A DNA stretch of 64,000 nucleotides from Pseudalkalibacillus salsuginis (GTDB taxonomy: Bacteria > Bacillota > Bacilli > Bacillales > Fictibacillaceae): the NCBI RefSeq assembly GCF_021646685.1, contig NZ_JAKJHW010000002.1, positions 248,001 through 312,000 of the forward strand. Reading direction: 5' to 3'. Shown here piece by piece: positions 6,152 through 53,593 of the stretch. Made by a program: the position numbers and the translations under genes. How positions within the stretch are numbered: position 1 is the first letter of the stretch; every line of letters starts with the position of its first letter. The notes below the pieces were generated by a model. It saw only the letters and a program-made list of their open reading frames with translations, ran no database searches and was not told the DNA's origin.

Positions 6152-6282
6152 ATAATTGCACGGTTTTCAAGAATAATTGCGCGAAAATTAAAATAATTGC
6201 ACCGCTTGTGAAATTCATTGCTCGGCAACCACTATAATTGCACTTCTTTGAAGTTTTTAACACTACAGAACTCATAATTGCA
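6152..6282. repeat. Periodic array 1: ATAATTGCAC units, 20-21 bp spacing
   Basis: ATAATTGC-type words start at 6152, 6173, 6193, 6213 (degenerate ATTCATTGC), 6234 and 6274. The intervals are 21, 20, 20, 21 and 40 bp, so one unit is eroded. The bases between the words differ from unit to unit. The array fills the gap between two convergent genes and abuts the shared terminator at 6299-6334. Confidence 0.7.
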
Positions 6283-6298
6283 TCACAATCCATCATCA

Positions 6299-6334
6299 AA
6301 AGAACCACCTCCCCGCTCATCTGGAAGGTGGTCT
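6299..6334. terminator. Bidirectional terminator between methyltransferase and siderophore operon
   Basis: AGAACCACCT pairs with AGGTGGTCT. A T-run follows the stem on the minus strand and a weaker T-rich stretch on the plus strand. It is placed to end the siderophore operon transcript. Confidence 0.7.
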
Positions 6335-6344
6335 AGTGTTCGCT

Positions 6345-8153
6345 TTATTTTTCAATCAACTGGAACAAGGCAAGTCCGTTGTCCACTTTTCCAAATTCGG
6401 AGGCGTGCGGGCGATCATCACCCTCTGCATATCCATAATCGACCATACGGTTCCTGTTCAAGCATAGTTTGGTCAATTCCGGCTTGAAGAAGTCGAATAG
6501 TTTGAACCGCTCCTCCAGCTCAGGAAATTTTGCCTGATAATCCTTGATCGATCGAGCTAGAAGTCCCCAGAAGGTTCGTTCATTCATCAATCCGCTACGG
6601 TCTAGCACATTGGATAAGTAGCGCAAGTGACAGATGAATAATCCTGTAAAAATGAATTGCGTCAAGCCTTCCGGCGGTTCACTCCGTAAGACAGCCTTCA
6701 AATCATCCGTCAGACCAGAAAGCTCCTCAAAAGGCTGGTCACTGATATTTACATCATCGACGAAATCCTTGACCGCCAGCCTGTACGGCTTATGATTTTT
6801 CAGTACAAGGATCGTATTTTGCCCGTGCGGTGAAAATACGGTGCCATATTGGTACAAGTAGTGGAGCAGCGGGTTCATGACGATCCCGAAGAAGTCCTTC
6901 ATCCATTCTTCAGCTGTCAAACCAGATTGCTCGACCAAACTGTGGATAAAAGGTTTTCCATTTTTATCGACATGATTGAGTGCAGCCAATGTAACCGCCT
7001 GCTCTCCTTCTTCCAGATACGTGTAGATGCTTTCACGCCAGATGACACCAAGCATTTCCAGGTATTGATAAGGTGCATGCTTCAACTGCTCGTACTGAGG
7101 ATGGGCATAATTAATACTCGCGATCTCTCCTGGTAAGATCACTCTGCATTCCTCTTTTAAAAATGGATCGTTTTCATAGATCCCCTTGATGAACGCGGTG
7201 ATACGAGGGGCGATCAAGGTTCGTTCCGATGGAAGTCCGCGATAGACGAGCGTGTTGAGGATACTCATCGGTACTTTCACATGATTCTTTGTCTTATCTG
7301 TCTGATTGGCGAAAGTTCGGATCGATTGCTGCGGCAGGTAACGATCATCCCCTTCACCAAGTGCGATAATCCGGTCCATTGCAAGGTCTTCCGGAAACGT
7401 CTGGATGATGACATTCTTCCATTGCCATTCATGGATCGGCATGAAGAAATAATCCGCCCTCTTCAATCCCTTTTCCGCTAAAACAGCTTCAAAGCGAGAA
7501 ACTTCTGTCTCGTCCAATTCGTCTTCGATGACTTTTTCAAAAGTAAGCCCTTCGACAGATTGGAAGCTTGCATTATCTTTATGGACAGCAATCCATAACA
7601 GCTTCACCTCTTGTTGATTTTCAGGGGCGAACGCAAGATAATCATCATAACCAAAGCCGATCCGTCCTTTGTTATATGTAATCCACGGATGCCCGCTCAT
7701 CTCCCCTTCAATTTTGCTGTAATCTTCATGGATCAATTCATCGGCTGGATTGGAATCCTTCATGAGCAAGTGTGCATCCGCAAGCAACGTATGGTTCAGT
7801 TCCTTGATCAGATGGCCTGCCGTTTCAGCAGACATTCCGATCATCGGTTGGATATCAAGTAAAAGTTCAATTGCGCTTTTTGCTTTCACCCAATTTCCCT
7901 CTACCGAAACTTCAACTGTATGGGGTTCAACATCCAAGCTGTCGAACAGACGAGGTTTCGCTGTGAATCGGTACTTCTTACCATCAGAAACCATCAGCTC
8001 GTACACCTTTCCATTCTCGCTTTCCCCTGTGACTTCAGGGTGAATCATCCCTTCATACTTATATTCTGCAAGCATTTTTGCAAGCAGCTTCTGATTGGCC
8101 ACAAGCCAAACCTCTTCGTTCAAGACATGATCTACTTCCTTGCTATATAACAT
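6345..8153 (-). CDS. IucA/IucC-family NIS siderophore synthetase (RhbF-like)
   Basis: About 602 aa. NIS synthetases use ATP to condense citrate or a citryl intermediate with an amine. Family landmarks include HPWITYNKGRIGF, a conserved HEWQW-type motif, a PMSILNT stretch and FSPHGQN, the His-Gly-Gln-Asn part of the active site. It is the last gene of the operon, matching rhbF, and would add the second N-acetyl-N-hydroxydiaminopropane arm. The frame is open to 8210; I prefer the ATG at 8153 with AGGG upstream, but an ATG at 8186 overlapping the MFS stop is possible. Confidence 0.88.
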   Translation of the reverse strand: MLYSKEVDHVLNEEVWLVANQKLLAKMLAEYKYEGMIHPEVTGESENGKVYELMVSDGKKYRFTAKPRLFDSLDVEPHTVEVSVEGNWVKAKSAIELLLDIQPMIGMSAETAGHLIKELNHTLLADAHLLMKDSNPADELIHEDYSKIEGEMSGHPWITYNKGRIGFGYDDYLAFAPENQQEVKLLWIAVHKDNASFQSVEGLTFEKVIEDELDETEVSRFEAVLAEKGLKRADYFFMPIHEWQWKNVIIQTFPEDLAMDRIIALGEGDDRYLPQQSIRTFANQTDKTKNHVKVPMSILNTLVYRGLPSERTLIAPRITAFIKGIYENDPFLKEECRVILPGEIASINYAHPQYEQLKHAPYQYLEMLGVIWRESIYTYLEEGEQAVTLAALNHVDKNGKPFIHSLVEQSGLTAEEWMKDFFGIVMNPLLHYLYQYGTVFSPHGQNTILVLKNHKPYRLAVKDFVDDVNISDQPFEELSGLTDDLKAVLRSEPPEGLTQFIFTGLFICHLRYLSNVLDRSGLMNERTFWGLLARSIKDYQAKFPELEERFKLFDFFKPELTKLCLNRNRMVDYGYAEGDDRPHASEFGKVDNGLALFQLIEK

Positions 8154-8175
8154 GTTATCCCTACTTTCTTTATGG

Positions 8176-9384
8176 TTATCCAACATAACGTCGTTTCTCT
8201 TGTTCAGCAATGATCCTTTTCTCTTCTTGAACTCCGCTCCTACTATAGATGGTCAGGAATACAAGAGCTAGATGAACCGCGATTGCTACACTAGCATAGA
8301 GGAATGGATGCTGTAACGTGTAATTTTCCACTAAAAATGTAGCAGCCAACGGCGCAAGCAATAGCCCCATATTTTGAAAGGCTGACATAATCCCATATTG
8401 ATAATGGACATTGCCGCCGCGCTGGAACAGGACGATTTCCAAGCTGGCTTGGCAGATTGCCAGTGCCAGCCCGAACAGGCACCTGAACACCACGAATAAC
8501 GGCATACTGGTGACGACCCCTTGGAACAGGAGACTGGCTCCTAGGATCATACCTGCTATTTTATACAAGGACGGGATCTTATCGGGTCGGCATTTTACGA
8601 TCATCGGTGCAGCCGCCACCGCCATGATACTCGGCATAAGGAACAGCAAACTGCTTGAAAACACGGATGTATGAAGCTCCCGTTCCGAAAACAGTGTGAA
8701 AAATGGCCGTACTAGCGTGACTGAGAAATGCAGCGTGAAAATGATCAATGCCATTTTCATAAGGAAGCCAAAGCCAACAACCCGTTTTCCGAGCACTTCT
8801 GGCTCTTTAGCAACCTCAGCATAAGCCCTCATCCTCTTAAAAACGAGAAAGCAAACGATCGCTTGGAGGGCATCCAATGCTGCCGCCCACCAGAAGACGA
8901 TGAGCGGATCCTCCAATTGGATCACCCACCCGCTCGCTAAGGTTGCAACAATCACGGATGACTGGAATACAGCATGATAGAGCCCGGTCACACGCTTTTT
9001 CGCTTTTCCAGCCTGTTGGATCAGAATCGTGTACAGTAAGATGTAACTGCTTTTAAAAAACAACAGGCAGATCGAAAAAATGAGGAATTGCTGTTCTGTC
9101 TGTGATACCGCCATAAGAACACAAGCAAAAGCAGTGCCAACCTGCCCGATCAGCAGCAATTTTCTGGCATCAAACCGTTTTGCGAGCAGCCCCCAGATCG
9201 GCGAGATCAGCACCACGGTCAGACGGCATAAAAAAACATACATGCCTGTGAAGCTCAAATCCTCAATCCCGAACACTTTTTCAAAGAATTGCGGATAGAA
9301 TGGCGATAACAACACCTCTGTCCCGACAAACAGGAAGATACAACCGAACAGGATAAAGTTGTTTAAACGTTGGCTGGCATACAT
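8176..9384 (-). CDS. MFS transporter in siderophore operon, probable exporter
   Basis: A 402-aa, 12-helix major facilitator protein with the loop motif GLLAKRFDARKL (motif A-like) between helices 2 and 3. It overlaps both neighbouring siderophore genes (22 bp with the hydroxylase upstream), so expression is coupled. In related NIS operons an MFS protein at this position exports the finished siderophore; a RhtX-like import permease is the alternative. No binding-protein-dependent importer is present in the window. Confidence 0.82.
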   Translation of the reverse strand: MYASQRLNNFILFGCIFLFVGTEVLLSPFYPQFFEKVFGIEDLSFTGMYVFLCRLTVVLISPIWGLLAKRFDARKLLLIGQVGTAFACVLMAVSQTEQQFLIFSICLLFFKSSYILLYTILIQQAGKAKKRVTGLYHAVFQSSVIVATLASGWVIQLEDPLIVFWWAAALDALQAIVCFLVFKRMRAYAEVAKEPEVLGKRVVGFGFLMKMALIIFTLHFSVTLVRPFFTLFSERELHTSVFSSSLLFLMPSIMAVAAAPMIVKCRPDKIPSLYKIAGMILGASLLFQGVVTSMPLFVVFRCLFGLALAICQASLEIVLFQRGGNVHYQYGIMSAFQNMGLLLAPLAATFLVENYTLQHPFLYASVAIAVHLALVFLTIYSRSGVQEEKRIIAEQEKRRYVG

Positions 9385-13021: not shown

Positions 13022-14559
13022 TGGTTCATCCCCCATTCGGTTGAGTACGTTTGTCCATATTGTTCAATCATCGTAAGAATTTCCTTGATATCGTCCAATG
13101 TAGTCCGAGGATTCAACAAGGTGAATTTCAAATAGGTCTCTCCCTCAACAGAGGTTTTCGCCATGATTGCCCCACCGCTCTCGAGCAGCATCTGTTGAAT
13201 TTTTTTATTGAGCAAATTCAAGTCAAGTCCTTCACCAGCGATTGGATCATATCGGAATACGACGGCGTTCAAGGCTGGATTCCGGTTGATGATCCTGAAA
13301 CCAGGGCGTCGATGGATCTCATCTGCTGTTTCCCTGGCAAGATTGAACGTATAATCGATCATGTCACCGAATGTTTTGGTTCCAATCATCCGTAAGGACA
13401 TCATCAGCTTCAACGCATCGAATCGTCTCGTCGTCTGTGTTGATTTCGTTACAAGATGAAGCATGCCATCCTCCTCGTCATCATTAGGATTCAAATAATC
13501 GGCATAGTGCTGTATATACCTGAATGATCGTTTATCTTTGACAAGGAAAGCCCCGCAGCTGATCGGTTGATAGAAAAGCTTGTGAAAATCGACGGTGATC
13601 GAATCAGCTTGCTCAATCCCAGCCAGCTTTTGATAATGGCTGTGGCTAAGGATGAGTGCACCGCCATAGGCAGCATCCACGTGGAACCAGAGACCATATT
13701 GCTCAGCAACCTGTCCAATTTCTTTCATCGGATCGATACTGCCGAAGTCAGTCGTCCCGCACGTAGCAACGAGTGCAAAAGGCAATAGTCCGTTATCTTC
13801 AAGAGATCCCAATTTTTCTTCAAGGTCGTCCATACACATTTGATGGTAATCATCCGTTTTGATGACTACAACTGCATTTTCCCCTAGACCAAGCTGTGAG
13901 GCTGACTTTTTCACAGTAAAATGAGCGTGCTCCGAGCAAAGGATTCTCAATCGATTAGCCTGTTCCGGGAGTCCTTCCTTTTGGACATGATGACCCCATC
14001 GCTTCCAGCAATAATCGTCCCTGGCGAGCAATAATCCCATATAATTCGATTGTGTACCCCCGCTCGTAAAAGTGCCATCACCTACTTCCCCAAACCCGAA
14101 CTTCGGAAGCAGCCAGCGAATCAGCTCATGTTCCAAATATGTGGCGGCTGTACTTTGATCCCAGGAATCCATGGATTGATTGAACGCACTGATGATCATT
14201 TCAGCTGCCAAGCCTGGCAGCAAAGGCGGACAGTGCAAGTGAGCAATACTTTTAGGATTGCTGATGTTGATATTGCTTTTTAAAAGAGGTTCCTGTATAT
14301 CCTCCAACAGTTCATACAAAGATTCTCCATTTTCCTTTACAAGTTCCAGCCTTTGTATTTCATGCCTGATGTCTTCGGGCGCTTTTCCGACGTAAGGTTT
14401 TGATTGATCGGAAAACGCCTCGATCAACTTCTCGCTCACCAGCTGGACTGCATGGCTGTATGCTGCAGCCCCCTCTGCTCCACCATGCAAAAAGAAGGGA
14501 TCGAAAGTTTTCTTTTCCTCATTTTGAATCGACGATGGTTTCAATACTTTTGTAATCAT
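13018..14559 (-). CDS. PLP-dependent L-2,4-diaminobutyrate decarboxylase (RhbB-like)
   Basis: About 513 aa, group II decarboxylase. The PLP lysine is in TVDFHKLFYQP (about residue 327), preceded by HVDAAYGGA and the phosphate-binding TSGGTQSN. It would convert L-2,4-diaminobutyrate to 1,3-diaminopropane, the amine backbone of schizokinen and rhizobactin 1021. The ATG at 14559 lies four bases after the aminotransferase stop, so translation is coupled. Glutamate or aromatic amino acid decarboxylases are the nearest alternatives, but the operon argues for diaminobutyrate. Confidence 0.88.
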   Translation of the reverse strand: MITKVLKPSSIQNEEKKTFDPFFLHGGAEGAAAYSHAVQLVSEKLIEAFSDQSKPYVGKAPEDIRHEIQRLELVKENGESLYELLEDIQEPLLKSNINISNPKSIAHLHCPPLLPGLAAEMIISAFNQSMDSWDQSTAATYLEHELIRWLLPKFGFGEVGDGTFTSGGTQSNYMGLLLARDDYCWKRWGHHVQKEGLPEQANRLRILCSEHAHFTVKKSASQLGLGENAVVVIKTDDYHQMCMDDLEEKLGSLEDNGLLPFALVATCGTTDFGSIDPMKEIGQVAEQYGLWFHVDAAYGGALILSHSHYQKLAGIEQADSITVDFHKLFYQPISCGAFLVKDKRSFRYIQHYADYLNPNDDEEDGMLHLVTKSTQTTRRFDALKLMMSLRMIGTKTFGDMIDYTFNLARETADEIHRRPGFRIINRNPALNAVVFRYDPIAGEGLDLNLLNKKIQQMLLESGGAIMAKTSVEGETYLKFTLLNPRTTLDDIKEILTMIEQYGQTYSTEWGMNH

Positions 14560-14563
14560 CGGA

Positions 14564-15916
14564 TCACCGTTCCCCAAGAACAGCGGTCACTGCATTTTTG
14601 AAAATCGAGGCTACTTCGTCAACTTGCTGTTCTGTAATGATCAGAGGAGGTAGTACCCGCACGACACAACCATGCCGACCACCGACCTCGAGAATGAGAC
14701 CACGGTTGAAGCATTCACGTTGGACCTGGCTTGCCAGCCCCGGATTGGCAGGGTGGCTTCCATTCGATGCCTGGGCTTTAGAAATATCAACCATTTCTAC
14801 TCCTATCATCAAACCGCGTCCCCTCACATCACCGATTTCCGGGTACTTTTCCTGTAATTCCTTAAGCAAGACCTGGAACTTGTCCCCCATTCGATCCGCA
14901 TGTTCAGTAAGATTCTTATCTTTGATGTGCCGGAGGGTAGCCGTACCGGTGGCCATTGCCATCTGGTTCCCTCTGAATGTTCCGATATGTGCGCCCGGTT
15001 CCCATTGATCAAGATCTTTATCATAAATCACGACCGATAATGGCAAGCTGCCCCCGATCGCTTTTGAGAGGACGATGACATCAGGTAAAATCCCGGCATG
15101 TTCGAAAGCAAAGAACTTACCTGTCCGTCCGATACCGGTTTGGATCTCATCAATGATCAACGGAATACCCCGTTCTTTCGTTATACGTCTCATTTCCTGA
15201 AGCCATCCTAAAGGGGCAGGAACCGATCCGCCTTCCCCTTGGACGACTTCCAGGATCATCGCTGCAGGGGGCAGGATACCGCTCTCAGGATCATCCAGGA
15301 GGTTCTCGATATATCGGCTGCTGATCTTATGGCCTTCTTCCCCTTTTATTCCAAATGGACAACGATACTCGTATGGATAAGGCAGAAAGTGTACATTTGG
15401 TATTAAACCTTGAACTCGTTCTTTCGGTCCAAGGTTACCGCTGATCGCCATCGTACCGTGCGTCGAACCATGATATCCACCCTGGAAGGTAAGGATAGAG
15501 CTTTTTCCAGTCGCAGTTTTCACAAGCTTCAATGCAGCTTCAATCGCATCTCCGCCTGTTGGACCGCAAAATTGGATCTTCGCCCGGTCTCTCAATTGGT
15601 CTGGAAGTGAGGAGAACATTTCACTCACGAACTCTTCTTTTACGGGAGTAGTGAGGTCTAAAGTATGTAAGGGTCGTTTATCCTGAATAATCTGTTCCAT
15701 CGCTTTGATTACGACGGGATGGTTGTGCCCGAGGGCGAGTGTTCCTGCCCCTGCAAGGCAATCATAGTAGCGCTTCCCCTCAACATCAGTAACGAATATT
15801 CCCTCTGCTTCTTCAATGGCGATCGGTATCCTCCGAGGGTAGGATCTTGCGTTCGATTCGCGTCGTTCTTGTTGTGCTAATAAAGATTTATTTGATGTTT
15901 TCTCCATTACGATCAT
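14564..15916 (-). CDS. Diaminobutyrate-2-oxoglutarate aminotransferase (RhbA-like)
   Basis: A 450-aa class III aminotransferase. It shows GGYHGSTHGTMAISG, the PLP-contact IIDEIQTGIGRTG and the Schiff-base lysine in VLSKAIGGS (residue 285). It makes L-2,4-diaminobutyrate from aspartate semialdehyde and glutamate, the first committed step of the pathway, and is the first gene of the operon. The ATG at 15916 follows AGAAAGGAAG by six bases. Two Fur boxes lie 25-76 bp upstream. EctB is a close relative, but no ectoine genes are present. Confidence 0.9.
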   Translation of the reverse strand: MIVMEKTSNKSLLAQQERRESNARSYPRRIPIAIEEAEGIFVTDVEGKRYYDCLAGAGTLALGHNHPVVIKAMEQIIQDKRPLHTLDLTTPVKEEFVSEMFSSLPDQLRDRAKIQFCGPTGGDAIEAALKLVKTATGKSSILTFQGGYHGSTHGTMAISGNLGPKERVQGLIPNVHFLPYPYEYRCPFGIKGEEGHKISSRYIENLLDDPESGILPPAAMILEVVQGEGGSVPAPLGWLQEMRRITKERGIPLIIDEIQTGIGRTGKFFAFEHAGILPDVIVLSKAIGGSLPLSVVIYDKDLDQWEPGAHIGTFRGNQMAMATGTATLRHIKDKNLTEHADRMGDKFQVLLKELQEKYPEIGDVRGRGLMIGVEMVDISKAQASNGSHPANPGLASQVQRECFNRGLILEVGGRHGCVVRVLPPLIITEQQVDEVASIFKNAVTAVLGER

Positions 15917-15940
15917 CTGAATCTTCCTTTCTGGTTTTGT

Positions 15941-15955
15941 TGATAATGATTTTCA
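15941..15955. promoter_or_regulatory. Fur box 1 of the siderophore operon
   Basis: TGATAATGATTTTCA matches the Bacillus 7-1-7 Fur consensus (TGATAATnATTATCA) at 14 of 15 positions. It lies just before the operon's ribosome binding site. Confidence 0.85.
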
Positions 15956-15977
15956 TTCGCGATAACACTACACTAAT

Positions 15978-18281: not shown

Positions 18282-18317
18282 TTGGCTTTTGAGCACGTTC
18301 ATCATCCTCTCTTCAAA

Positions 18318-18442
18318 CGCTTACGAGGTTAGCTGTCGGATTCGGGCGTAAAGAGTCGCCCTACCTTTCTAACAAAGGATTCACCCCTAGTGACGTCCGC
18401 CACGTGAAAATCGGGTCCCCCGCTCCATCAATGAATTAAGCG
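18318..18442 (-). ncRNA. ydaO/yuaA-type cyclic di-AMP riboswitch
   Basis: The minus strand carries the conserved aptamer core: GGGGGACCC, GGGGTGAATC, GTAGGGCGACTCT and CCGAATCCGACAGCTAACC in the right order, closed by a CGCTTA / TAAGCG P1 stem. The class binds two c-di-AMP molecules and turns off downstream potassium-transport genes by termination. Its position before ktrAB matches the known Bacillus arrangement. Confidence 0.93.
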
Positions 18443-18480
18443 ATAAGAATAAGAAACACGTTATTTAGATAAATAATTTT

Positions 18481-18514: not shown

Positions 18515-18754
18515 AGTCAGTCAGCCCCCTCAGTTTGACAAATCGGGAGTGAATTTCGTAAAAATAAACATTAGCATTTTTAAGATGTCCCTAATATTAC
18601 TCCTGTCTTACATATGATGTAAAGAGCCGTTTGAAGCCAAATTCAATCATATTAACTTATATTTACGCATTTATGTTGAATAACTTTCATTTACTAACTG
18701 CATCGTCTCTTTCCTTTATCAGAACAATAATCTCAGTCACCTAGAATGGTTTTT

Positions 18755-18887
18755 GGGATAATTTTGAGAGTTGTCGGGATAATTTCGGTTTTTTCAAGAT
18801 ATTTTCCGAGTTGTCGAGATAATTTCCGAGTTGTTGAGATAATTTTGGGATTGTAGCGTTTATACCCTCATTTGTCGGGATAATGCA
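18755..18887. repeat. Periodic array 2: GRGATAATTT units, 19-21 bp spacing
   Basis: Units start at 18755, 18776, 18797, 18816, 18836 and 18877 (intervals 21, 21, 19, 20, 41). Each has GRGATAATTT or AGATATTTT, most followed by a GAGTTGTC-like second half. The array begins directly beyond the carbonic anhydrase terminator, in the 753-bp gap that also holds the ydaO riboswitch. The remaining bases 18515-18754 show nothing else I recognise. Confidence 0.7.
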
Positions 18888-18919
18888 TAAAAGGCTGAAC
18901 ACCTCAGTGTTCAGCCCTT
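18888..18919 (-). terminator. Terminator of the carbonic anhydrase gene
   Basis: GGCTGAACA / TGTTCAGCC is a nine-base perfect stem with a CCTCA-type loop; on the minus strand it is followed by TTTTATGC. Confidence 0.8.
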
Positions 18920-18927: not shown

Positions 18928-19491
18928 TTATCTGTCATAACCATCAACGACGAGATCCAATTTCCCGGTGTCAGGGGCGATTACAAGCCCATGAACTGGA
19001 ACATCATCAGGTAATAGGGGATGATTGCGCACCATATCCACACTATTTCTTACACTTTCTTCGACACTGTTGAAGCCGCTCAACCATTTTTCAAGGTCAA
19101 CGCCAGAATGCTTCAAGGTATTGATCGTATCATTTGAAATTCCACGTTCTTTAAAGTGGCCTATCATTTTTTGCGGCTCGATACTGTTCATGCCGCATTG
19201 ATGGTGACCGATCACGAATACTTCATCGGCGCTCAGCTCATATACGGCTACAAGTATACTCCTCATTACGCTTCCAAAAGGATGAGAAATGATTGCCCCG
19301 GCGTTTTTGATCAATTTGAAATCACCATTCCGCAAATTCATCGATCGCGGCAACAGTTCCACTAATCTCGTGTCCATACAAGAAACAACAACCATGCGTT
19401 TGTCTGGAAGTTTTGATGTTTGATAGGGTTCATAAGCTTTTTCTTCAACAAACGATTCATTATAGTTCAAAATTTCATCTAATAGTGGCAT
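18928..19491 (-). CDS. Beta-class carbonic anhydrase
   Basis: A 187-aa protein from the ATG at 19491. Zinc ligands are Cys38, His96 and Cys99 in VSCMDTR and IGHHQCG, and the catalytic Asp40-Arg42 dyad is present. It interconverts carbon dioxide and bicarbonate in the cytoplasm, supplying carboxylases. It resembles the short YtiB-type enzymes of Bacillus. The open frame extends 11 codons further, but GAGAGGGA lies ten bases before the internal ATG, which I take as the start. Confidence 0.88.
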   Translation of the reverse strand: MPLLDEILNYNESFVEEKAYEPYQTSKLPDKRMVVVSCMDTRLVELLPRSMNLRNGDFKLIKNAGAIISHPFGSVMRSILVAVYELSADEVFVIGHHQCGMNSIEPQKMIGHFKERGISNDTINTLKHSGVDLEKWLSGFNSVEESVRNSVDMVRNHPLLPDDVPVHGLVIAPDTGKLDLVVDGYDR

Positions 19492-19653
19492 AATTAAGTC
19501 CCTCTCTTCAATAAGATTAGTCAAAACCCGCTTATAACTAATATATAAGTTGTTTAGAGGAATTTCAAAGGTCTGCTCCGAATTTTGTTCTTATTAAGCT
19601 AAATTTTTTATAGGCTAAGAATAATCATTTGTAATTAAGGGGGTACGAACGAT

Positions 19654-43639: not shown

Positions 43640-43680
43640 CCTTATCCACTCCTTGACTTTGTCTTTATCCTACAAATCAA

Positions 43681-43712: not shown

Positions 43713-43941
43713 GTAATTTTAAAAAGTTGAAAATTGAAGAATTGTGGTGCTTTTTTGCTGGTTCCATGCTGGATATGCTGTTTTTTGCATTAAATACAAG
43801 AATCAAAAACTATAATTCAGAGGATTTTCGGACAAAAATCCATCAGGTAATGTTTAGAACGTAAAAAAATACTAAAGAAAACTTTACTAGTATTACGAAG
43901 GATGAAAGTGACGACGATGCAACTACCCTCTCAGGTTGATG

Positions 43942-44125
43942 TGTTCATTTCTCCGATTAATCTGTTCACTTCCATGACTAATCTGTTCACTTCTACTATT
44001 AATCTGTTCACTTCCATGATTAATCTGTTCACTTCTACGATTAATCTGTTCACTTCTACGATTAATCTGTTCACTTCCATGATTAATCTGTTCACTTCTA
44101 CGATTAATCTGTTCACTTCTTCTGT
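43942..44125. repeat. Periodic array 3: nine 21-bp ATTAATCTGTTCACTTC units
   Basis: TGTTCACT (first copy TGTTCATT) recurs at 43942, 43963, 43984, 44005, 44026, 44047, 44068, 44089 and 44110, exactly 21 bp apart. Units are ATTAATCTGTTCACTTCYAYK, with two alternating endings (TCTACG and TCCATG). It lies at the 3' end of the DHA2 MFS gene, abutting the hairpin at 44134-44170. Frames crossing it translate to seven-residue repeats, but this is a by-product of the 21-bp unit. Confidence 0.9.
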
Positions 44126-44133
44126 TTCATATG

Positions 44134-44170
44134 AAAGACCACCTTCACACGAATGAAGATGGTCTTTTTT
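44134..44170. terminator. Hairpin overlapping the 3' end of the DHA2 MFS gene
   Basis: AAAGACCACCTTCA pairs with TGAAGATGGTCTTT; the T-run is on the plus side, and the minus side has only TTTCA. It overlaps the MFS stop codon at 44145. Confidence 0.6.
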
Positions 44171-45608
44171 CCTCTTTATTTTCTTCTGTTTTAAAGTCGG
44201 GAGAGATCCCTTTCCGGACGAACAATGCAACTACGAACGTCCCGATGCAAAGAGTAAGCGCGAACCAATAAGCATGGTGGACCCCGGCTGTCATCGCCTT
44301 ATCCAATAGTTCAGGCGTTATTTGGCCGGTCTGTCGTTCCAGATAACTTGTTTGACCTTGACTCATGATACTGACAAAAACAGCTACCCCCAATGCCCCG
44401 CCGATCGGTTGCAGTGTATTCGCAATTGCGGTCCCATGCGGATAAAGATGCTTTGGCAATTCATTCAGCGCATTCGTCTGTGATGGCATCAGAATCGCTG
44501 AAATGGAGAGCATCAACACGATATAGGCAAGGATGAATGACCAGATCGGAATACCAGGACTGATGTTGCTGAAGAAGATCATCACGCCTACTAATACGAT
44601 CGTTCCCGGAATGATCAGCTTCCTTGGACCGAACTTATCGAATAAGGTCCCCATGACCGGAGACATCAACCCATTGAGTAAAGCTCCTGGCAGGAGTAAT
44701 AAGCCTGCAATCTTAGCTGAATATCCGAGTGGTCCTTGCAAATACATCGGCATGACAATTTCAGAGGCGAACATCGCCATGATCACGACAACGAATATCG
44801 TGACACCCAGCGCATAATTTTTATAAGCGAAGACCCGGACATCCAGCAATGGCTCGTCGATTTTCAATTGCCGTAAAACGAAGAAAAGCAGACTGATAAG
44901 GCTGATCGCAATGATCAAAAGGATCTTAACCGAAGCAAAACCTTCCCCGCTTTCTCCTGCGCTGCTGAAGCCATAGACGATCCCACCAATCCCGATCGTC
45001 GAAAGGATGATGGACAGGACATCTGCTTTAGGACGCGTAATTTCCCCGACATTTTCCAGGTATTTGAATGCGAAAAGAATCGAAAACAGTGCGAACGGGA
45101 TGACAGAAATGAACAACCAGCGCCAGCCTAAAAAGTCGACGATTACACCTGAAAGCGTCGGTCCGATTGCCGGCGCAAACATGATGACGAGGCCGAATGT
45201 GCCCATGATCTTGCCCCGTACCTCAGGCGGATAGAGCAACAGCAACGCATTCATGATGACTGGGATCAATAACCCCGTTCCGACTGCCTGGACCATCCGC
45301 CCCGTCAACAGCATCGGAAAATTCAAGGCGCATGCAGCTATGATCGTCCCCGCTAAAAAGATCGACATCACACCAATGAACATCTGCCGCGTCGTAAACC
45401 ATTGGATCAGCAACGCAGAAATCGGCATCAAGACACCCATCACGAGCATGAATCCCGTCGCCATCCATTGGACGGTCGGCGCTTCGATCTCAAATACATG
45501 CATTAGCTCGGTCAATGCAATATTGAGAAGCGTCTCGTTCAAAACAGCAAAAAAAGCACCAATCATGAAGGTGATAAGAATGATTTTCGTATTAATTTTC
45601 GGTTCCAC
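44145..45608 (-). CDS. DHA2-family MFS multidrug transporter (EmrB/QacA/LmrB type)
   Basis: About 487 aa with 14 helices. Motifs of the DHA2 family are present: LNETLLNIAL (motif D1-like), GRMVQAVGTGLLIPV, and motif C APAIGPTLSGVIVD typical of antiporters. It would export drugs in exchange for protons, like B. subtilis LmrB/YhcA. GGGGGA precedes a GTG at 45608; the frame continues to 45626. A repeat array abuts each end of the gene. Confidence 0.87.
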   Translation of the reverse strand: MEPKINTKIILITFMIGAFFAVLNETLLNIALTELMHVFEIEAPTVQWMATGFMLVMGVLMPISALLIQWFTTRQMFIGVMSIFLAGTIIAACALNFPMLLTGRMVQAVGTGLLIPVIMNALLLLYPPEVRGKIMGTFGLVIMFAPAIGPTLSGVIVDFLGWRWLFISVIPFALFSILFAFKYLENVGEITRPKADVLSIILSTIGIGGIVYGFSSAGESGEGFASVKILLIIAISLISLLFFVLRQLKIDEPLLDVRVFAYKNYALGVTIFVVVIMAMFASEIVMPMYLQGPLGYSAKIAGLLLLPGALLNGLMSPVMGTLFDKFGPRKLIIPGTIVLVGVMIFFSNISPGIPIWSFILAYIVLMLSISAILMPSQTNALNELPKHLYPHGTAIANTLQPIGGALGVAVFVSIMSQGQTSYLERQTGQITPELLDKAMTAGVHHAYWFALTLCIGTFVVALFVRKGISPDFKTEENKEEKRPSSFV

Positions 45609-45690
45609 GATATCCCCCAACCTCATTAGCAGAATTTAACACTTTTCCATAATCCACTATTTCTATAACAATTTCAAGCTTTTCTGTTTT

Positions 45691-45812
45691 ATAAATCACC
45701 GATAAAATCCAGATTTGCACCGATATATCTTAAGTTTGCTACGATTTATTCCGGAATTGCACCGAAATAAATCCACATTACACCGTTAAATTTTGAGTTT
45801 GCTGCGAATAAA
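45691..45812. repeat. Periodic array 4: TGCACCGA units, exact 21-bp spacing
   Basis: CACC- or CTRC-type words align at 45697, 45718, 45739, 45760, 45781 and 45802, each 21 bp apart, in the frame TGCACCGATAWATC. Read on the minus strand the units start CGGTGCAATT, a word shared with array 1. The array abuts the T-run of the hom terminator. Confidence 0.75.
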
Positions 45813-45845
45813 AAACAGCCCGACCATCCGAAGATGTGGACTGTT
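45810..45845 (-). terminator. Terminator of hom
   Basis: On the minus strand AACAGTCC-ACATC / GATGG-TCGGGCTGTT stem with TTCG loop and six T. Confidence 0.8.
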
Positions 45846-45851
45846 CCTTGT

Positions 45852-47087
45852 TTAAGCTGATACGAAGGCTTTTTTGGCTGGTTGTGCAGGTGTACCTGTG
45901 AAAGGGTACACGGTGAGTGCATTGTCCTTCGCCTTCAGTTTTTTGATTTCTCGGCCTGTCGTCTTGACAAGCCTTCCGGTAATGAGTTCATTTTGATCCT
46001 TAATTGATTCCTCAAAAAGGATCACTCCATCAAGCTGATCATTGGAATTTCCGATCACGAACCACGTCTGTAGCTGGTCATCTATATCATTCAGGAGCTT
46101 CACGTCTTTTTTAACATGGGCATGATGGACGGAGTTGAAAACATTTACGAGATCCTCGATGATTGCGCTGGCTGTTGGGAGCTTGCCTGCCCCAGGTCCC
46201 TGAAGCTTCAACTGTCCGACAAGATCTCCTGTAATGACAACGGCGTTATCAACACCTTCCACAGAATACAATGGATGTTCTTCTGAGACTACTTTGGGTT
46301 CTACATCAATTTTCAAAGCACCATCTTTATAAAGAAGTGAGGCAACATGCTTCAACCTGAAACCGAACGATTCAGCAAGCCTGATATGATTCAATGAGAT
46401 ATCCCGGACCCCTTTCCGTTCGATCCATTTCCATTCTGGCCGTTGTCCGAACAACAATTCTGTAAGTATGACGATTTTATAAAAGGCATCATAGCCATCT
46501 ACATCATTAGATGGGTCCGCTTCAGCATATCCTTTAGCCTGTGCGGATTGCAAAGCATCAATGAAAGCAGTCCGCTTATTCCGTATTTCACTTAAAATGT
46601 AGTTGGAGGTTCCATTCAAAATCGCTTCGATCTTCACGACGGAATTCACCTGAAGCAATTGGTGCAGCGTCCCGATGACCGGTACCCCGCCAGCAACAGA
46701 TGCTTCATAGGAAATCTCGACGTTCTTTTCTTGCGCTTTCTGCTTCAATTCCCTTCCTTTATGCGCAAACAGTTCTTTATTCGCAGTTATGATATGGCAG
46801 CCTTTATCGATGGCTTTTGTTAAGTATGTGTACCCTGGTTCGATTCCGACGATCGCTTCGATGACGACATCAAGGTCAGGTATCGAAAGGATCTCATCAA
46901 AATGGGACGTGACGAGTATATCCGGAGAAATACCCCTTTCCTTAGTGATGTCATTGACCAGAATCCCTGCAATCTCGACATTTTTTCCAAGAAGTGACTT
47001 TAACCGCTCTTGATAATTTTGGATGATTTCATAGACACCGCTGCCGACCGTTCCGAAACCGAGTAAACCGACTTTTACAGTTGCCAC
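45852..47087 (-). CDS. hom: Homoserine dehydrogenase
   Basis: A 411-aa protein. The N-terminal Rossmann motif GLLGFGTVGSGVYE and the catalytic-domain stretch ADPSNDVDGYDAFYKIVILT are typical. It reduces aspartate semialdehyde to homoserine, feeding methionine and threonine synthesis. The C-terminal part (about residues 345-411) is an ACT-like extension. GTG start after CAGGAGGG. A SAM riboswitch lies in the 370-bp gap upstream, so this copy appears dedicated to methionine. It is the third gene after metX and metY. Confidence 0.93.
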   Translation of the reverse strand: MATVKVGLLGFGTVGSGVYEIIQNYQERLKSLLGKNVEIAGILVNDITKERGISPDILVTSHFDEILSIPDLDVVIEAIVGIEPGYTYLTKAIDKGCHIITANKELFAHKGRELKQKAQEKNVEISYEASVAGGVPVIGTLHQLLQVNSVVKIEAILNGTSNYILSEIRNKRTAFIDALQSAQAKGYAEADPSNDVDGYDAFYKIVILTELLFGQRPEWKWIERKGVRDISLNHIRLAESFGFRLKHVASLLYKDGALKIDVEPKVVSEEHPLYSVEGVDNAVVITGDLVGQLKLQGPGAGKLPTASAIIEDLVNVFNSVHHAHVKKDVKLLNDIDDQLQTWFVIGNSNDQLDGVILFEESIKDQNELITGRLVKTTGREIKKLKAKDNALTVYPFTGTPAQPAKKAFVSA

Positions 47088-47278
47088 GCTTTTCCCTCCT
47101 GTTTAACACCTGATTTCAATTGCTCGTATTGCGTCAATTTACGTCGCAAAAATCTTACTGCTGATCTTCGTTAAGACGAAAATCCGATCATTTTTTTGGA
47201 CACCGTTAACGACTGCATATATTCCCTTTTTCCCATATCCGCTTCTCCCAGCCTCTTGCTTTTTTATATAAAGTCCGA

Positions 47279-47308
47279 CGAAAATAGCCCCCTTCAATAA
47301 GAAGAGGG
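47279..47308 (-). terminator. Terminator controlled by the SAM riboswitch upstream of hom
   Basis: GCCCTCTTC / GAAGGGGGC stem with TTATT loop, followed by TATTTTC. The same left arm can pair instead with upstream GAAGGGC, giving an alternative structure. Confidence 0.7.
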
Positions 47309-47321
47309 CCAGCAACAGCCC

Positions 47322-47435
47322 TTCTTATCTATCAGGAATGTTCTCCTGCTGGAATTGGCACCTTTCCAAGTTCCTTACATACTTGATGGTTGCCGGGTTT
47401 CATCAGGCCAGCCCCTCCACCACTCTGGATAAGAA
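47322..47435 (-). ncRNA. SAM riboswitch (S-box) upstream of hom
   Basis: On the minus strand CTTATCCAGAGTGGTGGAGG opens the aptamer, followed by CTGGCC, GATGAAACCCGGCAACC, AAGGTGCCAATTCC and the closing GATAAGAA. These are the S-box conserved elements. It lies between metY and hom, so hom has its own SAM control. Confidence 0.95.
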
Positions 47436-47459
47436 ATCATCTATTCATATTTTTACGAG

Positions 47460-48776: not shown

Positions 48777-48821
48777 GTCAATCACTCCTCATTTTTAATA
48801 ATTTTTGATTCATTAAATCCT

Positions 48822-49904: not shown

Positions 49905-49954
49905 TGTCTGGCCTCCTTTGTTAGATTTCAATTCCGTTCGTTTTTCATGAAAAT

Positions 49955-49985
49955 CAAAAAGCCTCTCTGCAAAGACAGAGAGGCC
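49955..49985 (-). terminator. Terminator of the SAM riboswitch upstream of metX
   Basis: GCCTCTCTG / CAGAGAGGC stem followed by five T on the minus strand. Confidence 0.88.
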
Positions 49986-50005
49986 AAATTATCACACATT
50001 TGTCT

Positions 50006-50117
50006 CTCTCATCTTCCGAAACGCAGATACGCTTCGCAGGAATTAGCACCTTTCAAACCTAAGTTTGATGGTTGCCGGGCTTCATCGGGCCAGTCCCTCA
50101 GCCTCTCTTGATAAGAG
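50006..50117 (-). ncRNA. SAM riboswitch (S-box) upstream of metX
   Basis: On the minus strand CTCTTATCAAGAGAGGC and the closing GATGAGAG form P1; GAGGGACTGGCCC, GATGAAGCCCGGCAACC and GAAAGGTGCTAATTCC are the S-box core. A T-tailed hairpin follows, so SAM binding terminates metX transcription. Confidence 0.95.
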
Positions 50118-50153
50118 TTGAAATCAATTTAATTTTTAAATTATTTGATTCGA

Positions 50154-50182
50154 ATCTTAGCATGACGAAAAAAACGTGTCAA
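50154..50182 (-). promoter_or_regulatory. Promoter of the metX riboswitch transcript
   Basis: On the minus strand TTGACA, 17 bases, TAAGAT. It sits about 37 bp upstream of the aptamer. Confidence 0.8.
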
Positions 50183-50377
50183 CAGCTATTTTCAATTTTT
50201 CCATCGACTTTTTCCGACCTTTAACACTCGCCACTGTCCCGTTTTCTAGATAATTTTATCGGATTAAAAATAATTTTTGTTTTTTTAAGGTAATTGTGCA
50301 CCCTTAAGCTTTAAATTCATCCCTTTAGATTACCGTGCGCAAGCCTCCTCATTTACCTTAAATGTAGGTCGCCTGGT

Positions 50378-50410
50378 TCCCGCAGGAGTGTCGCGATTCG
50401 GTACATTTTA
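50378..50410 (+). repeat. Fragment of CCCGCARGAGTG-type interspersed repeat (copy 2)
   Basis: TTCCCGCAGGAGTG with GCGATTCGGTACATTTTAAAA, similar to the reverse strand of 18481-18514. It lies at the 3' end of the SgrR-like gene. Confidence 0.4.
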
Positions 50411-50422
50411 AAAGTTGAAAAA

Positions 50423-52147
50423 TCACTGGATCCATAATTTCCGTAGATCCACATTTCCGAATGAAACAAACTGGATATCCTGGATCATCGGATGGAAGGC
50501 CCGTTTTTTCACCGGATGGTTCATATAAAGGAACAGATTGTTTTCTTTGATATGATCTTCGATTTGATCAATCCATGCTTGACGTCCCTCAGCTGTCTCT
50601 TCCTTTTTAAAACAATCGAGCCAGCCATCGATCTTCTCCAAATGCTTTTTCCCTAATAACCGGCGGAACAACAGAGCGTCGTTTTTAAAAGCCCCAAAAA
50701 AGGAAAGGTGGTGATCATGGGATGCAACCTCCCCCATTAGCAGAAGATCGCCATTCTGATCTAGCTCAGGTGAGTAAAAATCACTGATTCGAAAAGGAAC
50801 ATGATGGATGTTCACACCATATCGGGCAGCCTTTTCAATTAACCATTGCGCCTCTTCTGCAGCCCGCAAATAATCTAGAGAATAGAGAGCCAATTCTTCC
50901 CCTTCATATCCAGATTCCTCAAGCAACCGAGGAATTTCAGAAGTCTCTCGTTGCCGGGATTCGGATTTCCAATGAAAATAGCTGGATGCCTCGATCGGCT
51001 CGGGTCTTCCAACATCGATGTACATCTGTTTCACATCCAAGAGATGATACATCGCCTCCCGAAACGAAGGATGATGAACAATAGATGTTCGTTTGAAGTT
51101 GAAAGCCAGGAATCGGAATCCGACTTCAACCTCCTCTTTTTCAAGATATTCTTGACTTTCCTGGACTCCTTCGATATGGAAGCTAATCTGTCGGGCAGCT
51201 GCATACGGTACATTCCAGAATTCCACTTCATCCAAAAGCGGCCGCTCCAAAAAATAGTGATCGAACGCTTCCAGGGCAAATTTCTTTTCTGATCGCTCCT
51301 TCAGCCTGAATGGACCTGTCCCGATCCATTCCGAGTCATCAAATTCCACATCACTCGGTAAGATTGCTAGATTGTGGGTCGATAGGTACCGTGCAAAAAA
51401 CGGATTCGGTCTCGACAATCGGAACGTAACGATGAATGGAGACGGACACTCGATGTTTTCGATTTCTTCGATCATCCAATAATAAGGGGACCCCCGCTCG
51501 ATCCTATTGAATGTATACAAGACATCTTCACTCTTCAGGATCTTCTGATGGTGGAACCGGACTCCTTTTCTTAGATAAAAACTCCATTTTCTATGATTGT
51601 CAGCCACAACCCAATGATGAGCAAGGTGGGGTTTGATCGTGTCACTTTCAAAATCATAGGTTACAAGACTATCACCTAACTGCTGGATCAGATAACTTTC
51701 AAAAGTGATGGATGCTTTGGCTGGATCGAGGCTCGTAAGCTCGTTTCTGAAAATAGAGCGTAAGACATCCTTCGATTGACTTTTAGACTGCAGTCCGAAA
51801 AGCGCCAATATTTCTTCAGAAATATTGGCTACCCACGACTTCGGGATCGGAAGCTGTAAAAGGTGAATCAAATCGTCCATCCGTTCTTGATCAACACATT
51901 TTTTGACAGCTGCTTCGATTTCCTCCTGAAAGGGTAGGAAAAACCGAACCGCAGAAGCATTACCTCTTCCCCTGCCAGGTTCATAAGCCAACAGCTTTTC
52001 AGCTTCGAATTTTTTCATTTTCCTTTTCACATTTTTCTGTGTACAGAACCATATCTGTTCAAGCTCGCTCAGCTTGAATGTTGAACACCGTTCTTTTTCC
52101 CTGGGATAAAGGAACGCTCGCAGTTCATAGTAGGAAAGGTCTTTCAT
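50423..52147 (-). CDS. SgrR-family regulator with solute-binding domain
   Basis: About 574 aa. The N-terminal 110 residues are a DNA-binding SgrR_N domain (TFKLSELEQIWFCTQKNVKR then GRGRGNASAVRF). Residues about 165-500 resemble extracellular solute-binding proteins of family 5 (LTSLDPAK, KWSFYLRKGVRFH, LKSEDVLYTFNRI). The protein probably senses a small molecule and controls the divergent MFS gene. The ATG at 52147 follows AGGAGGT by seven bases. In Bacillus such pairs are common; the ligand is unknown. Confidence 0.87.
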   Translation of the reverse strand: MKDLSYYELRAFLYPREKERCSTFKLSELEQIWFCTQKNVKRKMKKFEAEKLLAYEPGRGRGNASAVRFFLPFQEEIEAAVKKCVDQERMDDLIHLLQLPIPKSWVANISEEILALFGLQSKSQSKDVLRSIFRNELTSLDPAKASITFESYLIQQLGDSLVTYDFESDTIKPHLAHHWVVADNHRKWSFYLRKGVRFHHQKILKSEDVLYTFNRIERGSPYYWMIEEIENIECPSPFIVTFRLSRPNPFFARYLSTHNLAILPSDVEFDDSEWIGTGPFRLKERSEKKFALEAFDHYFLERPLLDEVEFWNVPYAAARQISFHIEGVQESQEYLEKEEVEVGFRFLAFNFKRTSIVHHPSFREAMYHLLDVKQMYIDVGRPEPIEASSYFHWKSESRQRETSEIPRLLEESGYEGEELALYSLDYLRAAEEAQWLIEKAARYGVNIHHVPFRISDFYSPELDQNGDLLLMGEVASHDHHLSFFGAFKNDALLFRRLLGKKHLEKIDGWLDCFKKEETAEGRQAWIDQIEDHIKENNLFLYMNHPVKKRAFHPMIQDIQFVSFGNVDLRKLWIQ

Positions 52148-52158
52148 CTCACTCACCT

Positions 52159-52211
52159 CCTAAAAAGGGGACATAATTAATAGCATTATACCCTTTTTAT
52201 CCCCTTTTAGG
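52159..52211. promoter_or_regulatory. Large dyad in the SgrR/MFS divergent promoter region
   Basis: CCTAAAAAGGGGA at the left and TCCCCTTTTAGG at the right form an almost perfect inverted repeat 53 bp across, with a TATAAT (minus strand) between. It overlaps the SgrR ribosome site and is a good operator candidate. Confidence 0.55.
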
Positions 52212-52246
52212 AATTGCAAAATGAGAGAAGGAAGGGTGAAAAAACT

Positions 52247-53506
52247 ATGTTGATAGAATTACATCCGAATATTCGAATACGTATCTACACTTCTTTTTTA
52301 AGCAGACTGATCGGTTCCATGATCTTTCCTTTCATGGCGATTTATTTTACTAATGCCATCAATGCCTTCTGGGCAGGGACATTGTTATTGATAAACGTCA
52401 TCATCCAGTTCATCGCTGGATTGTATGGTGGGTATTTAGCCGATATTTTAGGTCGTAAAAGGTTGATGGTGACCGGTGAATGGATGAAAGTGATCGGTTT
52501 TGTCGGCATGATCCTCGCCAACTCGCCCTGGTACTCCTCTCCATGGATGACTTTTGGCATGATGGCGATCATCGGAATTGCATCAGGACTTGTAAATCCG
52601 GCTGCTGAAGCGATGTTGATCGATGTCAGCACAAAAGAAACCCGCGCCTTCATGTATGCCATCAATTACTGGGCCGTGAACATGTCTTTGATGCTAGGTT
52701 TAATTGTCGGCGGCTTCCTGTATAAAACACACTTTTTCGAATTGTTGCTTGCCTTATTCCTGATGTCCCTGGTGACGCTTTGGATGACAGCCACCCTCAT
52801 CCAGGAAACCTATACACCAGAAAGCACGACAACGAAACCTTACGGGATCAAGCCGATTTTACAAAGCTATAAGACTGTCATTACAGATCTCCCTTTTGTG
52901 ATGTTCATAATCGGAGGGATCGCGGTGTTGTCAATCGAGTTCCAGCGTGACAATTTCATCGCTGTACGACTGGAAGATGAGATCATTCCGAAAACGTACT
53001 CCTTTTTAAGCGGTCTGGACTTTTCGATTGACGGAGTTAAGCTGCTCAGCCTGTTGACAGTCGAAAATACGATTATCATCGTACTATTTACAGGGCTTGT
53101 GGCAAAATGGATCCGTAATAAGCGTGAACAGCCGATCATGTATGCAGGATTCATCTTATTCGGGCTCGGATATGGAGTCCTGGCATTCTCAAATGACTTT
53201 ACCACCCTTGTGCTCGCTGTCGTCATCCTCTCGATCGGGGAATTGATGTACGTTCCGACACGTCAATCGATCCTTGCAGATATCGTTGACGATTCACGAC
53301 GTGGAGCTTATATGGCTTTCAATGGATTTGTCTTCCAAATCGGAAAGATGGTCGGGGCACTTGGAATCATCATAGGGGAGGCGATCGGTGGAGTCGGAAT
53401 GGGTGTCCTCTATTTCGTTTTTGCTTTGTTAGGCATCGTTTTTACAAAAATGGCGATCCAAATGCGTTCAGTAAATGGAAAAATCACCGCTGAAAAGGCT
53501 ATTTGA
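52247..53506 (+). CDS. MFS transporter divergent from the SgrR-like regulator
   Basis: About 419 aa, 12 helices, with motif A GGYLADILGRKRLM. It is a paralogue of the 33.1-34.4 kb transporter. Divergent location from an SgrR-type sensor suggests that the pump exports the compound sensed, or a sugar or peptide derivative of it. The ATG at 52247 follows GGAAGGGTG; the frame starts 11 codons earlier without better support. Confidence 0.86.
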   Translation: MLIELHPNIRIRIYTSFLSRLIGSMIFPFMAIYFTNAINAFWAGTLLLINVIIQFIAGLYGGYLADILGRKRLMVTGEWMKVIGFVGMILANSPWYSSPWMTFGMMAIIGIASGLVNPAAEAMLIDVSTKETRAFMYAINYWAVNMSLMLGLIVGGFLYKTHFFELLLALFLMSLVTLWMTATLIQETYTPESTTTKPYGIKPILQSYKTVITDLPFVMFIIGGIAVLSIEFQRDNFIAVRLEDEIIPKTYSFLSGLDFSIDGVKLLSLLTVENTIIIVLFTGLVAKWIRNKREQPIMYAGFILFGLGYGVLAFSNDFTTLVLAVVILSIGELMYVPTRQSILADIVDDSRRGAYMAFNGFVFQIGKMVGALGIIIGEAIGGVGMGVLYFVFALLGIVFTKMAIQMRSVNGKITAEKAI

Positions 53507-53512
53507 TTACGG

Positions 53513-53538
53513 AAGGACGGCGACTCGTCGTCCTTTTG
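53513..53538 (+). terminator. Terminator of the MFS gene
   Basis: AAGGACG / CGTCCTT stem, then TTTGCTTTT, seven bases after the stop. Confidence 0.8.
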
Positions 53539-53560
53539 CTTTTAAGATAGACCGGTTGTA

Positions 53561-53593
53561 GGAATCACGCCGATTTCCAGCTAATCACGCCAA
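53561..53593. repeat. Periodic array 5: two AATCACGCC units 20 bp apart
   Basis: AATCACGCC starts at 53563 and 53583. It sits between the MFS terminator and the convergent isomerase gene, as the other arrays do. With only two units this could be chance; context and spacing favour membership. Confidence 0.45.

Follow-up and report, generated by a model that had tools for sequence, protein, structure and literature searches.

What are the short words that recur every 20-21 bp between genes in the genome of Pseudalkalibacillus salsuginis? The question is raised by a 64-kb window (the whole stretch of DNA analysed here, G000:C13:248001-312000, where G000 is the organism's own 4.29 Mb draft genome), in which an earlier note had pointed to five such sites. 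The window was examined together with 1.6 Mb of further stretches of the same genome (1.664 Mb in all) and with partial samples of the relatives G001, G005, G006, G010 and G017. Each array repeats a word of 8-12 bp some 3-9 times, with all copies in the same direction and spacers of about 8-13 bp between them. The explanation favoured here, tentatively and somewhat short of an even chance, is that the words of an array are sites for a putative cooperative, sequence-specific DNA-binding factor, lined up on one face of the helix where transcription units end. The arrays of the window and the hairpins beside them are as follows.

6153-6284, minus strand: family III array, word CGTGCAATTA, between convergent genes; six words with at most 2 mismatches, at steps of 21, 20, 21, 20 and 40 bp
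6304-6334, minus strand: 3'-terminal hairpin of the leftward gene 6345-8210, adjoining the family III array; found by eye and missed by the terminator predictor
18749-18882, minus strand: family IV array, word TATCYCGACAAC, period 20, with a variant unit GCTACAA; found by Tandem Repeats Finder (TRF) and family words
18893-18916: 3'-terminal 10-pair hairpin of the leftward gene 18928-19524, adjoining the family IV array
43940-44117, minus strand: family II array, word AGTGAACAGA, period 21, nine words; found by TRF (period 21) and the exact 6-mer test
44134-44167: hairpin adjoining the family II array and overlapping the end of the leftward open reading frame (ORF) 44145-45626; found by eye
45694-45809, minus strand: family I array, word TATCGGTGCAA, period 21, six words with at most 4 mismatches; found by family words
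45811-45845, minus strand: 3'-terminal hairpin and T-run of the leftward homoserine dehydrogenase gene (45852-47087), adjoining the family I array; found by eye
53513-53536, plus strand: 3'-terminal hairpin of the rightward gene 52214-53506, preceding the family V pair; found by eye
53563-53591, minus strand: family V pair, two copies of AATCACGCC at a step of 20 bp; weak alone

These five sites (6153, 18749, 43940, 45694 and 53563) thus represent families III, IV, II, I and V, respectively. The 20-21 bp recurrence first noticed at all five is confirmed at the first four, three of which stand out by themselves and 45694 through the words of its family, while 53563, with only two copies of AATCACGCC, is weak by itself. 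Exact intergenic 6-mer chains (at least 3 copies at 20-21 bp) were found at two places in the window, 6152 and 43942, compared to a mean of 0.005 and a maximum of 1 in 200 dinucleotide shuffles. TRF reported 18768-18845 (period 20) and 43929-44120 (period 21), so that site 18749 was recovered by TRF together with family words and site 45694 by family words only; degenerate arrays, such as 45694 and its counterpart in G005, escape the exact 6-mer test. Among the six words at 45694 are a variant, CGTAGCAA, and, on the complement of 45694-45704, the end unit TATCGGTGATT.

The period itself is strongly marked across the larger sample. The main scan, for chains of at least three identical 6-mers, covered 945 intergenic regions (304,861 bases) and 20 dinucleotide shuffles, with genes called by a simple longest-ORF rule that makes coding fractions and gene contexts approximate. 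It found 27 clusters at 20-21 bp, where the shuffles averaged 0.25 and never exceeded 1, and the suspected enrichment of periodic intergenic blocks over shuffled sequence is thereby borne out. Sixteen clusters were found at 21-22 bp, 8 at 19-20 bp and no more than 3 at any remaining spacing between 10 and 39 bp; peaks at 40-42 and 61-63 bp are multiples of the period, and those at 47-48 and 51-53 bp belong to other elements. Chains of 7-mers at a spacing of 20-21 bp gave 17 intergenic and 2 coding clusters. Over 36 rows from six word families (at least 3 words each), 86 steps measured 21 bp, 28 measured 20, 2 measured 19 and none measured 22 (21 was tried first), while in family X, the ATCACATAA family of G010, 49 of 60 steps were exactly 21 bp when 15-27 bp was allowed and the copy nearest to 21 was favoured. 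Pairs of ATCACATAA among the matches listed were also nearly all at 21 bp, with 18-22 permitted. A spacing of 20-21 bp corresponds to two turns of B-DNA. The arrays had been described as lying outside genes, which is true of 34 of the 36 rows; the other two fall within longest-rule ORFs. Coding repeats were rejected, as the 20-bp period of family IV and others shifts the reading frame.

Unit sequences had been taken to be specific to each site. Instead, unit families recur within the genome, including TATCGGTGCAA, AGTGAACAGA, GTGCAAT, TATCYCGACAAC and others, and six families each occupy 2-10 loci in the 1.664 Mb. After one family VI row (at B44032) was dropped for overlapping a family II array, 35 arrays remained:

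Family I, TATCGGTGCAA: 8 arrays
Family II, AGTGAACAGA: 6 arrays
Family III, CGTGCAATTA: 7 arrays
Family IV, TATCTCGACAAC: 10 arrays
Family VI, AATCCTAGAAA: 2 arrays
Family VII, TTTAACGACGAA: 2 arrays

In families III and IV, the word columns are mostly 70-100% identical, about equally within and between arrays, while the spacer columns are mostly about 20-55% identical both within and between arrays; three inner columns of the family IV word are also variable. Family X (60 units in 15 arrays of G010, some of the last units extending beyond the true array end) displays the same pattern of a conserved word and a mostly free spacer, and family I is similar, except that three further columns form another conserved A/T block. 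The units of family II are more alike within arrays than between them, as expected after recent expansion, and arrays B43940 and A232270 consist of near-identical units. A few family IV words in G006 read CTACAAC or CCACAAC, where those of G000 are mostly CGACAAC or CAACAAC. By eye, several families also have characteristic units: the last unit of family I is TATCGGTGATT (at most 1 mismatch) at 5 of 8 loci in G000 and 3 of 5 in G006, that of family X is ATCACATAATTT at 7 of 15 loci, where the bases after it are partly conserved, and family IV has a unit with GCTACAA at 5 of 10 loci and with CTACAA at 7 of 10. The words occur in arrays only to a large extent, since isolated intergenic copies of eight word-derived 10-mers numbered 0-3 each in the 1.664 Mb (0.2-0.9 for shuffled words). 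Isolated operator sites of ordinary regulators were rejected as an identity on the same scarcity of isolated words. The suggestion that the period and not the sequence is conserved therefore applies across genera, where the words change, and does not apply within a genus; there, word and spacing together, rather than spacing alone, are maintained, because the word is conserved and the spacer is mostly free.

The arrays are also unevenly distributed with respect to genes. Fifteen of the 35 lie between convergent genes, 16 between tandem genes and 4 between divergent genes, compared to an intergenic background of 182 convergent, 573 tandem and 185 divergent regions in which convergent regions make up 18% of intergenic bases. 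The convergent excess is significant by bases (p=6e-4) and by count (0.002), and the divergent deficit has p=0.16; the ATCACATAA arrays of G010 (n=15) comprise 6 convergent, 9 tandem and no divergent cases. Every array had been described as lying only tens of bases from a hairpin at a 3' end, which overstates a genuine enrichment: 13 of 35 arrays have a predicted terminator within 50 bp, compared to 4.6 +/- 1.8 in class-matched placements without overlap to a terminator, and none of 300 placements reached 13. This predictor overlooks some hairpins visible by eye, such as those beside 6153 and 18749. A second predictor gave 12 arrays versus 7.0 +/- 2.2, with 6 of 300 placements reaching 12 and no excess within 25 bp. 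In the window, the family II and family I arrays are 20 and 28 bp, respectively, from predicted terminators, while a separate consensus scan found none at either place; the hairpin at 44134-44167 has its longer T-run on the plus-strand side. Beside tandem genes the word strand is the sense strand in 25 of 30 arrays (p=0.004, allowing each family its own orientation), made up of 7/8 in family I, 6/6 in II, 2/2 in III, 3/5 in IV and 7/9 in X; families VI and VII, with one tandem array each (antisense and sense, respectively), were left out of the test. These counts are not fully independent, because the G006 stretches were picked partly for holding the words and some G006 and G000 arrays may be orthologous.

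A word-agnostic scan (6-mers at spacings of 19-22 bp) detected 29 intergenic arrays in 1,664 kb of G000, 8 in 160 kb of G005, 6 (two of them doubtful) in 400 kb of G001, a member of the same genus with other words, and 13 in 200 kb of G010, from another genus of the family, with at least 8 words unseen in G000. No arrays were found in 200 kb of G017, a relative at the order level. Matches in called coding regions numbered 5 in G000, 1 in G017 and 0 in G005, G001 and G010. Across 34 genomes of the family, pairs or longer rows of ATCACATAA were present in 16, all among the 18 genomes of genus g4, to which G010 belongs. The family I pair was present in 6 (G000, G003, G005, G006 and two of genus g2, in which the word continues differently and the spacing is again 21 bp) and the family II pair in 3 (G000, G005 and G006). 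Reversed-pattern controls gave 0 for ATCACATAA in the same 34 genomes and 0 for families I and II, except for one family I match. An exact longer family I pair matched 9 stretches in a collection of 84,980 species; eight came from Bacillus sp. Marseille-Q3570 and Alkalihalobacillus sp. YIM B00296, and the ninth is one pair at a spacing of 20 bp in a Lactobacillus metagenome-assembled genome. Three of 21 pieces from relatives (~4 kb; L023-L041, L064 and L065), from G003, G007 and G010, held further intergenic arrays at exactly 20 bp. In five other Bacillales records, nine 50-kb stretches contained a single T-rich match of period 22, and one E. coli stretch scanned in the word-agnostic manner had no array. 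Within the sampled DNA, which outside the family is a small set consisting mostly of plasmids, the arrays are strong in the family and rare outside it. Two further word families of period 21 were seen in G006, AATCACGACAAAACCGAAAAT (L081:6291-6386) and CTTGCGTAATTCCACCCCTAT (L083:2566-2634).

At all six sites compared (the five of the window and C13:317304), G005 keeps arrays or words in place with gains and losses of whole units. The counterpart of 6153 is one unit longer, site 43940 has nine words in G000, three in G005 and two in G006, and the counterpart of 53563 has three GCGTGA words. No words were present in G006 at 18749 and 45694, and three of the six sites did not align in the part of G006 that was read. 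With B43940 included and counted twice, substitutions are less frequent in words (18/338) than in spacers (43/396, p=0.007), a difference that loses significance when this expanded array is removed. As separate observations, an insertion of ~2 kb with an insertion-sequence-like look lies in G005:C136 near the counterpart of window position 18890, beside the family IV array on its terminator side, and a dispersed repeat of ~100-250 bp containing GCG(C/T)AAACGCCCTGATCAGCC occurs at window 54473-54697 and elsewhere, with presence or absence between G000 and G005 at several junctions.

How might these properties be explained? A row of cooperative sites on one face of the helix is suggested by the fixed two-turn spacing, the conserved words, the mostly free spacers, the restriction of words to arrays and the scarcity of RNA structure (no fold signal on the word strand, with family means of z from -0.46 to 0.51, family X left out). 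Each word would be the recognition site of a candidate cooperative DNA-binding factor that works only as a row, and copies at exactly 20 or 21 bp would all be presented on one side of the helix. From the location at unit ends and beside terminators, the suggested role is that of a boundary, roadblock or anchor; where genes converge or a terminator has been passed, the row may mark or insulate the ends of transcription units, possibly by blocking read-through or collision or by anchoring the nucleoid. From these features we infer both a protein acting on DNA as the recogniser and the boundary role. A spacing that is kept while the word changes by family and genus suggests a class of multi-site elements not described before. 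It is possible, if rather doubtful, that this is a general class of boundary elements in which the geometry is conserved and any short word in two-turn phase can be paired with a lineage-specific putative binder, several word-binder pairs being present per genome and replaced between genera. If the arrays are boundary elements, they would provide an abundant and easily tested system for the ending of transcription or the organisation of the chromosome, with a set of binding factors, and the many words on one geometry would make helical phasing testable in vivo by spacing changes of 5 or 10 bp.

Several observations weigh against rows of binding sites at unit ends. Four arrays lie between divergent genes, the orientation bias would fit an RNA role as well, and word VI has 3 isolated intergenic copies in the 1.664 Mb. 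Just 9 of 35 arrays have an alignable counterpart (in G005 or YIM B00296), and in the orthologs without B43940 the difference between word (14/272) and spacer (29/332) substitutions is only suggestive (p=0.11). None of 6 arrays was shared at orthologous gene ends across genera (205 reciprocal best hits); in one isolated case, L030 of G010, an array of another word stands beside a homoserine dehydrogenase-like gene. The opposite strand folds slightly better than shuffles in family IV (mean z -1.25, n=10), VI (-1.6) and VII (-1.8; n=2 each), the remaining families ranging between -0.2 and 0.4. Some ten words would require several binders, and no large paralogous DNA-binding family was apparent by cluster size among 1347 proteins in unannotated clusters. 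LytTR response-regulator sites consist of two ~9-bp direct boxes at 21 bp in promoters, and the arrays likewise have ~9-bp direct boxes at 21 bp; binding by LytTR proteins was rejected, as the domain (PF04397) has no match in G000, G005 or G006 and one match each in G001 and G010.

Other known systems share parts of this design. Plasmid iterons and ParR centromere repeats are direct repeats about two helical turns apart that are bound cooperatively beside rep or par, but these are single sites, whereas the arrays occupy tens of chromosomal loci; none of the 9 proteins flanking the window sites matches rep or par families (3 of 9 had no informative match, and both flanks are named at 6153 and 45694). 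Repetitive extragenic palindromic (REP) sequences and bacterial interspersed mosaic elements (BIMEs) are extragenic, favour 3' ends and convergent genes, and consist of palindromic units that fold. The arrays resemble them in extragenic 3'-end location, as seen in the convergent excess, but not in folding, given the lack of a signal on the word strand. Clustered regularly interspaced short palindromic repeats (CRISPR) have repeats and spacers of roughly 20-50 bp each, unlike the much shorter words and spacers of the arrays.

A doubtful but serious rival to cooperative binding sites is that the arrays are host-neutral interspersed elements like the STAR elements of staphylococci, selfish or hitch-hiking, spread and homogenised by dispersal or conversion and of no benefit to the host. 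STAR elements (PMC3532100) are intergenic direct repeats with a conserved motif, locus-specific spacers, gain and loss of units and a distinct last ('anchor') spacer; their 14-bp GC-rich consensus is T(G/A/T)TGTTG(G/T)GGCCC(C/A) with at least 40 bp between copies, and their function was described as unknown in 2012, as were their origin and spread. The general build is the same, as the arrays, too, are direct repeats between genes whose spacers differ by locus and whose copy number varies, but they differ in having 8-12 bp words at 20/21 bp, many words per genome and a bias to gene ends; the STAR consensus had no exact match in the 1.664 Mb. The TAACTGA repeats of Beggiatoaceae and others (PMC4679880) are a single heptamer in many intergenic sets, mostly just upstream of start codons. 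They share short repeated intergenic words with the arrays and differ from them in the many words and the 20/21 bp spacing of the latter, and no TAACTGA direct repeats with gaps of 0-3 were found in the 1.664 Mb. Of the published kinds seen, these two come closest, with a different motif in both and a different spacing as well in STAR; among the literature matches listed, no such arrays appeared besides STAR and TAACTGA repeats.

Dispersal is consistent with the multi-copy families and their recurring end units (families I and X) or GCTACAA variant (family IV), with the 38 matches in G000, 23 in G005 and 3 in G006 of a family IV pair pattern (at most 2 mismatches), and with a 242-bp segment carrying a family IV array that is present twice, 15 kb apart. 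However, recent copying between loci is rare, being limited, among the 35 arrays, to a single near-identical pair and, at 86-87%, two pairs from family I, and the G005 arrays are at the same places at all six sites. No mobility family was matched among the 9 proteins flanking the window sites, 3 of which had no informative match. An origin in phages or plasmids was rejected on just two array searches: neither the family IV nor the family X array matched plasmids. Phage matches to the family IV array (13 records, 40% of the query, Lactococcus phage genes) are weak and partial and were taken as chance. Exact pairs of two words matched 18 and 5 stretches of viral contigs; by eye, coding sequence or single pairs account for most of these 23, longer tandem repeats for two (L212, period 20, and L225, period 21), and none was judged a clear member. 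In its own right, L212:9223-9454 is a near-perfect 20-bp tandem repeat of ~12 copies containing TTATGTGAT. Should the arrays be selfish, they would form a relative of the STAR repeats that comprises many families.

It is unlikely that the arrays act at the RNA level, in read-through or 3' untranslated region (UTR) transcripts whose words are sites for an RNA-binding protein or small RNA. The sense orientation beside tandem genes would fit such a role, as would the arrays that start no more than 20 bases past a stop codon, but orientation is mixed in family IV, several arrays lie past the terminator of the upstream gene (18749 and 45694 in the window), the word strand has no fold signal, there is no consistent promoter and the exact 20/21 bp spacing has no obvious RNA reason. 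RNA hairpins were rejected on the word-strand result, with the mild opposite-strand signal in IV, VI and VII. Promoters at array heads, an idea that arose from GACA-N17-TACAAT in family IV and GGACA-N17 in family X, were also rejected, as the best sigma-A scores are near those of shuffles (mean z on the word and opposite strands of 0.02/-0.52 in I, -0.41/0.23 in II, -0.13/0.47 in III, 0.72/1.14 in IV, -0.28/0.37 in VI, -1.14/1.05 in VII and -0.36/-0.61 in X).

Neutral tandem duplication or slippage, by which the arrays would be minisatellites with a period set by chance and decaying through mutation, is very unlikely. Unit number does differ by whole units between G000 and G005, and the near-identical units of B43940 and A232270 would also fit. 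However, the units of families III, IV and X are hardly more alike within an array than across loci while the word stays, within-array likeness is mostly absent in I and only partly present in II, few other periods exist besides multiples and the 48 and 52 bp classes, and the same word is found at many loci and in many species. Local slippage of different seeds, as had been proposed, consequently fails for III, IV and X, even though slippage-like gain and loss of units occurs; it is insufficient alone for the older arrays, whose spacers are mostly close to random and whose words are about as well conserved from locus to locus as inside one locus. Most improbable of all is that the arrays are curved DNA with phased A-tracts, in which the period is functional and the word is not: the period of two helical turns, the family X words running into AAAAA and the phasing scores of family VI (z 3.9 and 3.2; mean 3.58, n=2) and family I (mean 1.11) would fit, but the means of II (-0.15) and III (-0.51), beside 0.55 in VII and 0.78 in IV, make A-tract phasing no common feature of the arrays, and word conservation is far more specific than curvature requires.

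Other features were seen alongside the arrays. A second class of intergenic arrays has a period of 52 bp (five helical turns) and 14 sites in the 1.664 Mb, for example C13:169594-170067, C15:105979-106307 and C15:263422-263618; it comprises several related units, some with an 11-bp inverted repeat each, and its period is nearer to that of STAR elements. A third class, of period 48 bp and word CGGTGCCTGGTAC, occupies three sites (C13:141894, C7:725401-725599 and C7:788232). In the window, riboswitches at 18302-18452, 47322-47435 and 50006-50117 comprise one c-di-AMP and two S-adenosylmethionine (SAM) riboswitches, and the gene at 6345-8210 encodes an SbnF-like siderophore synthetase near the diaminobutyrate decarboxylase- and diaminobutyrate aminotransferase-like DNA of 13100-15900.

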